From positions 1-64,000 of the forward strand of contig QCCF01000005.1 in assembly GCA_003281365.1 (NCBI GenBank): a stretch of 64,000 nt of DNA, in the 5' to 3' direction. The notes under the pieces were generated by a model that was not told the DNA's origin, ran no database searches, and saw only the letters and a list, made by a program, of their open reading frames with translations. This stretch comes from Prochlorococcus sp. AG-347-K18. GTDB lineage: Bacteria; Cyanobacteriota; Cyanobacteriia; PCC-6307; Cyanobiaceae. This document shows, in pieces, positions 12,603-49,258 of this stretch. Numbering within the stretch: position 1 is the stretch's first letter; each line of letters starts with the position of its first letter. A program made the position numbers and the translations under genes.

Positions 12603-13511
12603 TTAATCCTTTTTGTTAATAAAGATTTCTGATTTTTCTGATTCTTTTTCATTAATATCACTGATAATATTATCATCCGGTTTTGTCTTTTGGGATATGA
12701 CATTTTTACTTAAAGATGCTTTACTTGCTCCCATGGAGTTTTGATTGCCAATCAAATTTACAAGAAGTTCTTGTAACCTACTGCTGGTAATTGGTCTTTC
12801 AAGTTTCCCTTGGTTTGCTAATGATAACGTACCTGTCTCTTCAGAAACAACAATACATATACACCTGTCAAATCTTTCTGTAATTCCTAATGCAGCTAAA
12901 TGTCTTGTGCCGTATCTGCTAATTCCTTGCCTCGAGAGAGGAAGAATTACACCAGCAGATATTATTTTGTTACCTTTAACAAGCACTGCTCCATCATGTA
13001 AGGGTGTATCTGTTGCAAAAAGATTTATTAAAAGATCAGTTGATAATTGTGCCTCGATATTTGTACCTGAATATAGGAAATCTTCAGGCCTTAAATCACT
13101 CCCTAAGTCCACTACGATTAAAGCGCCTCTCCTATTCTGAGAGAGTTTACCTGCAGTATCAACTAATTGAGTAATAGTAGTTGATGTTGCTCTAAATTCC
13201 TTTGGTGGATTTCCGAGTAATACAGCTAACCTCCCAGTGCCTAATAATTCCATCAATCTTCTTAGTTCACCTTGCCAAAGAATTGCTAATGAGAGCGAGC
13301 AGGCGAGGACTACGGCATCAATTAATTTTGATGTTAAAGGAAGGTATGCGTATCTTTGAATAAACCATGCGGAAGAAACTAAAAACAAATAACCCCTTAA
13401 AAGCCATAATGTTCTCTGTTCTTTTACTCTAGAAAATAATAAAAGTCCGAAACCAACAGCAAATAAGATATCTAATAAAAGTTTTAAATTTATTATCCCC
13501 CAGAAATTCAC
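12603..13511 (-). CDS. cdaA: Membrane diadenylate cyclase (c-di-AMP synthase), CdaA family
   Basis: CdaA makes the second messenger cyclic di-AMP from two ATP. The 302-residue protein has three N-terminal hydrophobic helices (about 8-27, 36-52, 62-80) and then the DAC domain with LHDGAVLV (D173-G174-A175) and GTRHLAALGITE (202-211). The family consensus RHR reads Arg-His-Leu here. VSEETGTLSLANQGKL follows as expected. The last 50 residues are a Ser/Lys-rich tail of unknown role. The start is GTG at 13511. It lies between lysA (28 bases) and uppS (three bases), linking c-di-AMP to lysine and wall synthesis. Confidence 0.92.
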   Translation of the reverse strand: MNFWGIINLKLLLDILFAVGFGLLLFSRVKEQRTLWLLRGYLFLVSSAWFIQRYAYLPLTSKLIDAVVLACSLSLAILWQGELRRLMELLGTGRLAVLLGNPPKEFRATSTTITQLVDTAGKLSQNRRGALIVVDLGSDLRPEDFLYSGTNIEAQLSTDLLINLFATDTPLHDGAVLVKGNKIISAGVILPLSRQGISRYGTRHLAALGITERFDRCICIVVSEETGTLSLANQGKLERPITSSRLQELLVNLIGNQNSMGASKASLSKNVISQKTKPDDNIISDINEKESEKSEIFINKKD

Positions 13512-38536: not shown

Positions 38537-40009
38537 GTGCAAAACATCACAACTAACTTAAAGAAATTGTTCTATCTTTGGCGGCGGAGTCAAGTTCCAG
38601 TAAAACAACCAATTAAAATTTCAAGAATAGATAATCTCATTATTTTTTTAGTATGCATTTTAATTTCAATAATTTCTTCTTATAAGCAACTTCTTATCTC
38701 ACCTTTGAATATCGCAGATATTATTTCTTGGCTTTTGAACTTTAGTGAAATACTTATTGGCTCTGGAATTTTGATATTAGTTTCAAAAAAAGAGAATCCT
38801 ACAATTTCTTCAAGACAGATCTTCTTGATTATTTCTCTTCTTTTAGCAGTACAAGTTACGAAATTAGCATTAGCTTCAACAATAAGTCCATTGTCCATGA
38901 TAATTCCACCCGCCTTAATAATATCTCAGGGAATGGGAAGCATAACAGCTTTAGCTTGGGTATCAATAGCAAGTTTTAGTTGGCCAGACCCAGAGGTAGC
39001 TATTAATAGTAATATATTTTTTATTTTATTAGTTTTCTCAACAGTAGTATCTCTACTTGGAGGAAGAATAAGAAGTAGAGCTCAGTTACTTCAACTATCA
39101 TTTTTTGTACCCATAGGATCATTCTTGAGCCAATGGATATTGATTGGTAAAGATAAAATATCTCTTATTAATAATCAAGACTTTGTCTTATCTAATGGGA
39201 ATATATTTTCTGACTCTTTGTTATTGGCAATAGTAATGCTTTTTACTATTTTACTTATTCCTATTTTTGAATCTATATTCGGATTATTAACAAAAGCAAG
39301 ATTACTTGAATTGGCGGATAAGGAGAAACCTTTAATTAGAAGATTGTCTCTTGAAGCTCCTGGTACTTTTGAACATACGTTACTTATATGTGGTTTAGCA
39401 GAGGAAGCAACTAGAATGATTGGTGGTGATATAGATCTAATTAAAACTGGGGCGTTGTATCATGATGTTGGTAAATTACATGCACCTAATTGGTTTATCG
39501 AAAATCAGGATGGTTCAAAAAATCCGCATGACGAATTAGATGATCCGATTAAAAGTGCTGAAGTATTGCAGGCGCACGTGGATGAGGGATTAAAATTTGC
39601 GAGAAAAAATAGACTACCTAAACTGATAGCTAATTTTATTCCTGAACATCAGGGTACTCTAAAAATGGGATATTTTCTTCAAAAAGCTAAAGAAAAAAAT
39701 CTCGACATCAATGAATATTATTTTAGATACAAAGGACCTATTCCTCAGTCAAAGGAAACAGCTATTTTAATGCTTGCTGATGGATGTGAAGCAGCACTAA
39801 GAGCTATGAATATTAATGCTTCTGATAAAGAAGCTCTGGAAACAATATCTAACATTATCTATTCGCGTCTCAAAGATGGGCAATTAGATAATAGTAATTT
39901 ATCGAAAGGAGAAATTTTTTTAATAAAAAGGGCATTCTTGAATGTATGGAAAAGAATTAGACATAGAAGAATTCAGTATCCAACCAGCAAGAATAATACT
40001 TTTTCTTAA
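38537..40009 (+). CDS. Multi-pass membrane HD phosphohydrolase, PgpH-like (probable c-di-AMP phosphodiesterase)
   Basis: A 490-residue protein with about seven hydrophobic helices in the first 250 residues, then a cytosolic HD domain. The linker RLLELADKEKPLIRRLSLEAPGTFEHTLL and the metal site ALYHDVGKLHAPNWFIENQ (HD about 309), NPHDELDD and IPEHQGT follow the order known from PgpH, which hydrolyses cyclic di-AMP in Firmicutes. The large extracellular sensor domain (7TMR-HDED) of PgpH is missing, so the sequence goes almost directly into the membrane part. The start is GTG at 38537, 74 bases from divergent folD. The c-di-AMP substrate is inference. Confidence 0.82.
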   Translation: MQNITTNLKKLFYLWRRSQVPVKQPIKISRIDNLIIFLVCILISIISSYKQLLISPLNIADIISWLLNFSEILIGSGILILVSKKENPTISSRQIFLIISLLLAVQVTKLALASTISPLSMIIPPALIISQGMGSITALAWVSIASFSWPDPEVAINSNIFFILLVFSTVVSLLGGRIRSRAQLLQLSFFVPIGSFLSQWILIGKDKISLINNQDFVLSNGNIFSDSLLLAIVMLFTILLIPIFESIFGLLTKARLLELADKEKPLIRRLSLEAPGTFEHTLLICGLAEEATRMIGGDIDLIKTGALYHDVGKLHAPNWFIENQDGSKNPHDELDDPIKSAEVLQAHVDEGLKFARKNRLPKLIANFIPEHQGTLKMGYFLQKAKEKNLDINEYYFRYKGPIPQSKETAILMLADGCEAALRAMNINASDKEALETISNIIYSRLKDGQLDNSNLSKGEIFLIKRAFLNVWKRIRHRRIQYPTSKNNTFS

Positions 40010-49197: not shown

Positions 49198-49202
49198 ATG
49201 AT

Positions 49203-49258
49203 GGGGGAAACCCCATGCTCCTCACACACTAAATTGCCCGATTAATCGGGCTTTTTTT
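49203..49258 (+). ncRNA. yfr1: Small regulatory RNA Yfr1
   Basis: A short sRNA with two hairpins lies between guaB and trxA, the reported position of Yfr1 in marine picocyanobacteria. Seen: 5' hairpin GGGG-AAA-CCCC, then the unpaired GCTCCTCACACAC (the ultraconserved pairing region has CUCCUCACAC), then the terminator stem GCCCGATT/AATCGGGC (49236-49251) and seven T. Yfr1 pairs with mRNAs of porin/outer membrane proteins and is needed under stress. Function is known from related strains. Confidence 0.93.

Follow-up and report, generated by a model that had tools for sequence, protein, structure and literature searches.

Among the described systems closest to the gene analysed here is PgpH of Listeria monocytogenes (Lmo1466; HD domain structures 4s1b and 4s1c), which in its canonical form has three parts, a 7TMR-HDED domain (hereafter HDED), a 7TM membrane domain and an HD domain. 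Excerpts of PMC10243994 describe the extracellular domain of PgpH as being of unknown function. In cyanobacteria, Slr0104 of Synechocystis was named as a PF07698 c-di-AMP phosphodiesterase, and its overexpression about halved c-di-AMP, a change that was not significant, with c-di-AMP below detection in the presence of NaCl (excerpts of PMC5986932). Synpcc7942_0779 of S. elongatus was identified as the PgpH reciprocal best hit and as a PF07698 phosphodiesterase (excerpts of PMC5897029). Our search of open-licence PMC texts found no paper on HDED loss in Prochlorococcus, and no activity or c-di-AMP measurement was seen for these organisms in the literature search.

Domain composition of the window protein

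The window is the whole 64,000-nucleotide stretch analysed here, from Prochlorococcus sp. AG-347-K18 (contig QCCF01000005.1). Its plus strand carries, at positions 38537 to 40009, a gene with a GTG start that encodes 490 amino acids (aa) and has a YSV start region common to most of the frames listed for its genus. Pfam analysis revealed a match to PF07698 (7TM-7TMR_HD) at aa 64–252 (E 1.1e-15; 58.5 bits against a curated cut-off of 29.4) and a match to PF01966 (HD) at aa 277–419 (E 2.1e-13). The sole solved structure matched by sequence at E up to 1 was 4s1b, the Listeria PgpH HD domain, a match that covers aa 262–482 (window 39320 to 39982, plus strand) at E 2.9e-45. The preliminary description, which had read the protein as membrane helices followed by a PgpH-type HD domain, thus named its family correctly. 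By published family assignment, Slr0104 and Synpcc7942_0779 share the PF07698 family with the window protein; the Pfam family of its membrane domain takes its name from this type of enzyme.

The HDED domain, which had been described as absent, was indeed not matched by PF07697 in the 490-aa protein at E up to 1, and a search of the organism's own assembly (97.4% complete) with the HDED model gave no matches. The S. elongatus control genome matched both PF07698 and PF07697, whereas the genome of the window matched PF07698 only. Because no HDED match was found, we classify the window protein as a member of the PF07698 family that is, on its sequence, a variant and not a canonical PgpH. It differs from PgpH in a second respect, a Gln at the position of the second HHG His; otherwise the active sites are alike, the HD domains are 35–37% identical, and the predicted model of the HD domain aligned with 4s1b at Z 26.9.

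The window also contains, as had been noted earlier, cdaA, encoding a diadenylate cyclase and presumed source of c-di-AMP, at 12603 to 13511 on the minus strand (204.6 bits with NCBIfam TIGR00159, cut-off 188.8; PF02457). The further suggestion that the two genes constitute a minimal make-and-break system may hold at the level of these two domains, DAC and 7TM-HD, each of which has a single match in the assembly. Among the genomes sampled, cdaA was present in 6 of 6 of the window's own genus and in 141 of 151 of its family.

Nature, distribution and timing of the deletion

Alignment with full-length relatives revealed a clean in-frame internal deletion of approximately 210 aa in the window protein. 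Both the N-terminus and the first membrane helix remain (ISIISSYKQLL versus AIISSYKLL), and the sequence picks up again just before the second helix. The kept helix, TM1 (aa 30–52; 38624 to 38692, plus strand), aligned with TM1 of the full-length relatives and was supported by a helix at the same residues of the predicted model and by a hydropathy peak at 28–46; it goes beyond the account given in the preliminary description. The junction lies approximately at aa 53–60 (38693 to 38716, plus strand), where alignments and Pfam place the roughly 210 aa with HDED in the relatives. Pfam found HDED in all eight full-length relatives scanned (six from the family and two from elsewhere in the class), compared with neither of two rows from the window's own genus (hereafter the genus); it was also not found in the deeper rows L156 and L159.

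To establish how widely the short form occurs, frame lengths were compared across 201 genomes of the family, 10 of them from the genus. All 10 of the latter had frames of 493–496 aa, and the rows listed for other genera had frames of 686–1008 aa except for G002 (602 aa), G026 (598 aa) and G033 (408 aa), all three of which start at a contig start; G002 and G026 nevertheless have HDED. HDED was matched in 129 of 151 family genomes and in 88 of the 95 that were at least 90% complete, these being 88 of 89 outside the genus versus 0 of 6 inside it. The lone exception outside the genus, G013 (listed as 90% complete), lacked the membrane domain as well. Within the genus the gene was present in 205 of 249 genomes and in 82 of 83 near-complete ones; among the matches listed of these 205, frames were 449–516 aa, and the three shortest listed (449, 453 and 480 aa) start no more than 172 bases from a contig start. 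The comparison of lengths across Prochlorococcus and Synechococcus that had been proposed earlier accordingly separated the short frames of the genus from named full-length rows of 690–711 aa (bar one cut by a contig end), with HDED in the family outside the genus.

In a tree of membrane plus HD sequence, from which four contig-cut rows were left out and which used 7 of the 30 loci from outside the family, 29 rows of the genus formed one clade (100/100) on a long stem (0.98). A tree of the HD domain only (20 short rows, after thinning, and 30 long ones, each assigned to its form by frame length) required a single change between the two forms, with an SH-aLRT of 94. Among named records, the short group comprised Prochlorococcus single cells and assemblies, including bv. 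HNLC2, and the long group comprised other Prochlorococcus (including MIT 0701), Synechococcus (including WH7803) and one Aphanothece. Judging partly from genome size, the short group is probably the high-light clade.

The full-length orthologues, such as those of MIT 0701 (L180) and WH7803 (L186), resemble the window gene in the adjoining folD, in TM1, in the membrane core and in the HD domain, and differ from it in possessing the approximately 210 aa with HDED; they are 47–53% identical to the window protein. In the 14 full-length relatives compared, folD lies upstream in 13, the stretch of the remaining one (L171) ending before it, and leuA lies downstream in 8; leuA was not matched within the fetched stretch in the other 6, L186 and L180 among them. 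Comparison of the alignments, genome counts and trees shows that HDED was removed once, by a single in-frame deletion that falls on the stem leading to this genus of Prochlorococcus.

An origin of the short frame in sequencing or assembly, as a frameshift, pseudogene or assembly fault, could call on one single-cell copy that is frame-broken near residue 85 (L144:3001-4471). We give this reading almost no credence: it is refuted by the recurrence of the same open frame across the genus and by dN/dS values far below 1. It is also very improbable that another protein fills the role of HDED in trans. We found no evidence in support of such a partner, and the HDED model had no matches in the organism's own assembly or in five other genomes of the genus, although a strongly diverged domain could slip past the model.

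HDED-less 7TM-HD proteins are, judging from Pfam matches, not unique to this genus. Six of the seven rows scanned from Cyanobacteriota outside the class (L033, L034, L035, L036, L037 and L051) combine PF07698 with an HD domain in the same way, whereas L045 has HDED; these six are, unlike the window protein, distant and carry an HHG motif. The lineages of Cyanobacteriota outside the class that have 7TM-HD proteins are presumably non-phototrophic. The Thermotoga maritima control genome likewise gave a match to PF07698 and none to PF07697. In the class sample, 27 of 145 genomes lacked an HDED match, 5 of them from the genus; of the other 22, five were compared for PF07698 (G205, G285, G289, G369 and G419), and it is missing from all five too. 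Some near-complete genomes of the class thus have neither HDED nor the 7TM-HD gene.

The loss is clean and fixed, and the catalytic domain that remains is still strongly selected, which constitutes a natural test of the role of the extracellular domain. Long and short orthologues could be swapped, so that the function of HDED is open to experiment, and the clade in question belongs to the most abundant photosynthetic bacteria of the ocean.

Constraint on the catalytic and membrane domains

Residues H280, H309-D310, K313, H347, H371 and D415 are conserved in the HD domain. The His, His-Asp, His, His and Asp of the Listeria site were kept in 81 of 81 rows of the genus, 72 of 72 of the long group and 30 of 30 from other Cyanobacteriota, an alignment that included some contig-cut long rows and the frame-broken L144 and left out L131, L149 and L161, all three of which encode the protein. 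The Lys of the HDxGK motif was invariant in 48 aligned rows. Asp648 apart, we presume which residues of the PgpH site bind metal. Asp648 as a metal residue and Lys547 as a catalytic one are named for PgpH in the published excerpts available.

The second His of the Listeria HHG motif is Gln in the window protein (Q372; window 39650 to 39652). Across loci L001 and L004 to L188, Gln occupied this position in all 81 rows of the genus, all 72 full-length rows of the family and 21 of the 30 other rows; HQ was thus found in 174 of 174 aligned rows of the class, and all nine HH rows came from outside it. Since the long forms have Gln too, the substitution is unconnected to the deletion, and loss of a metal ligand was rejected as a mark of decay.

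Between close copies within the genus, median pairwise dN/dS was 0.064 for the HD domain and 0.21 for both the membrane domain and the N-terminus, the pairs not being independent. By these ratios the catalytic part is still under strong selection, and we regard the window protein as most likely a working c-di-AMP phosphodiesterase regulated through the membrane or the cytoplasm. HD domains are versatile, and the presumed metal site includes a Gln, so a shift to another nucleotide as the main substrate deserves mention; we judge it improbable, however, in view of the Gln shared with the long forms, the low dN/dS of the HD domain and the retention of cdaA in all six genomes of the genus.

Canonical PgpH has eight membrane helices and a cytoplasmic HD domain. 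The predicted model of the window protein contains eight hydrophobic helices, two of them short (118–132 and 135–147), and the hydropathy profile has seven peaks. With TM1 kept along with the other helices, the even number in the model suggests that the HD domain would continue to lie on the cytoplasmic side.

Divergence of the membrane domain was compared at matched HD identity among 78 short and 69 long rows, in pairs that are not independent. At HD identities of 65–70% and 70–75%, membrane identity was 37.9% and 39.5% between short and long forms versus 43.1% and 49.9% among long forms. At 75–80%, 80–85% and 85–90%, it was 56.2%, 56.5% and 69.4% within the genus versus 54.9%, 60.5% and 65.7% among long forms. 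Divergence between short and long forms is therefore raised and the pace within the genus is usual, which indicates that change was concentrated on the stem on which HDED was lost. This may reflect relaxed constraint or adaptation to work without HDED, either of which would fit. Mean identities between the window and 27 full-length named loci were 53.7% for folD (24 of 27 measured), 75.9% for crtE (19), 67.1% for the HD domain (27) and 37.6% for the membrane part (25); the comparison with folD and crtE gave no support for explaining the long stem of the genus by gene-specific acceleration.

These data bear on the possibility that the sensor was lost entirely, leaving a constitutive housekeeping phosphodiesterase with a mere membrane anchor and CdaA alone to set c-di-AMP. 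Such simple streamlining would suit genomes of approximately 1.6–1.7 Mb in the genus, the absence of c-di-GMP and cAMP systems from Prochlorococcus reported in published excerpts, a membrane dN/dS about three times that of the HD domain and the extra membrane divergence on the genus stem. However, purifying selection still acts on the membrane domain (dN/dS 0.21), the pace of this domain within the genus relative to the HD domain is near that of the long forms, and two residues that lie in predicted membrane helices, Glu71 and Gln106, show conservation of 95% or more in the short and the long groups alike. We consider a constitutive enzyme unlikely, while granting it real weight.

The explanation that we prefer, and hold to be probable, is that the gene is a cyanobacterial 7TM-7TMR_HD orthologue that lost HDED once and still acts as a c-di-AMP phosphodiesterase set via the membrane or the cytoplasm. 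The ancestral orthologue lost its periplasmic HDED by one in-frame deletion on the genus stem with the membrane helices kept, and the HD domain would have stayed cytoplasmic, as the even helix count of the model suggests. The family and the conserved active site suggest that c-di-AMP made by CdaA is most likely still cut to pApA, and the activity would most likely be set by a ligand or state of the membrane domain together with nucleotides of the cytoplasm, (p)ppGpp for example. Points that weigh against this explanation are the Gln at the second HHG position, shared though it is with the long forms, the absence of a c-di-AMP riboswitch from 31 genomes of the genus, and the seven hydropathy peaks beside eight model helices.

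Predicted fold of the membrane core

To examine the membrane part, an AlphaFold2 model of the window protein was built from 48 aligned sequences (mean pLDDT 80.5), and one of the full-length WH7803 protein from 29 (pLDDT 77.7). The window model of aa 90–249, the membrane core (38804 to 39283, plus strand), aligned with TmRibU (5kbw_B) over 158 of 171 residues at 3.3 Å, with a Z of 13.7; the comparison tool warns that helical bundles can reach Z of about 13 without kinship. Further matches of the window model were a second TmRibU crystal form (5kc4, Z 12.0), chain S of 4huq (Z 11.1), folate S-components (Z 9.6 and 9.2), ThiT (Z 9.3 and 9.2) and 5edl (Z 8.1). Chain S of 4huq, a structure titled only as a transporter, is presumably the S-component. 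The WH7803 model matched TmRibU over 159 of 171 residues at 3.7 Å (Z 10.7), with no other S-component among the matches listed.

Excerpts of PMC11109136 (Partipilo & Slotboom 2024) describe the S-component fold in 5TMR sensor kinases, the pyruvate receptor BtsS among them, as an H0 helix and six further helices followed by a cytoplasmic output domain, and tie an AXXXA motif to transport. The predicted layout of the window protein matches that of BtsS and YpdA, with aa 59–86 as H0 (38711 to 38794, plus strand; conserved Glu71 and Glu86), a six-helix core that matched TmRibU nearly full length, and then a cytoplasmic output domain; the helix after H0 (aa 92–112) has no AXXXA motif. Sequence profiles, in contrast, gave no support: hhalign of the membrane domain against a profile of four 5TMR sequences returned a probability of 2%, and of 21 membrane domains taken from beyond the family, 2 touched PF07694 (5TM-5TMR_LYT), the best E being 0.0054, so that kinship with 5TMR-LYT failed at the sequence level. 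The main text of PMC11109136 contains none of the terms hydrolase, phosphodiesterase, PgpH, 7TM, HD domain or c-di-AMP, and our literature search found no paper joining c-di-AMP and S-components, nor a mention of the fold for the 7TM-7TMR_HD family.

By the predicted models, the membrane core may sit on an S-component fold, a possibly ligand-binding architecture that the preliminary description did not include. If it does, the hunt for the signal that sets c-di-AMP moves to small-molecule ligands of the membrane domain. A broader proposal, which we offer tentatively and rate as less probable than its negation, is that 7TM-7TMR_HD membrane domains generally would be small-molecule receptors of the S-component type, and that this clade dropped HDED and senses through the membrane receptor alone. 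If true, a metabolite in or at the membrane would exert direct control over how fast these very abundant phototrophs turn over c-di-AMP.

Other candidate components of the c-di-AMP circuit

The organism's own genome encodes a RelA/SpoT protein, which matters here since inhibition of PgpH by (p)ppGpp has been reported (excerpts of PMC10243994). It also has four TrkA_C matches and two P-II matches, one of the latter being a 93-aa SbtB-like protein encoded directly after an SbtA-like transporter (L224:501-1782), putative names that take account of the gene order. SbtB is reported to bind c-di-AMP (excerpts of PMC13249358). The RelA/SpoT protein, the SbtA-SbtB-like pair and the four TrkA_C matches are, from their sequence assignments, possible inputs and outputs of the circuit. 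A c-di-AMP riboswitch was rejected as a receptor: RF00379 was found in 0 of 31 genomes of the genus, so no RNA receptor is visible there, and it was not among the two matches that the window gave at gathering thresholds. The window does carry a Yfr1 small RNA at 49201 to 49254 on the plus strand (52.6 bits).
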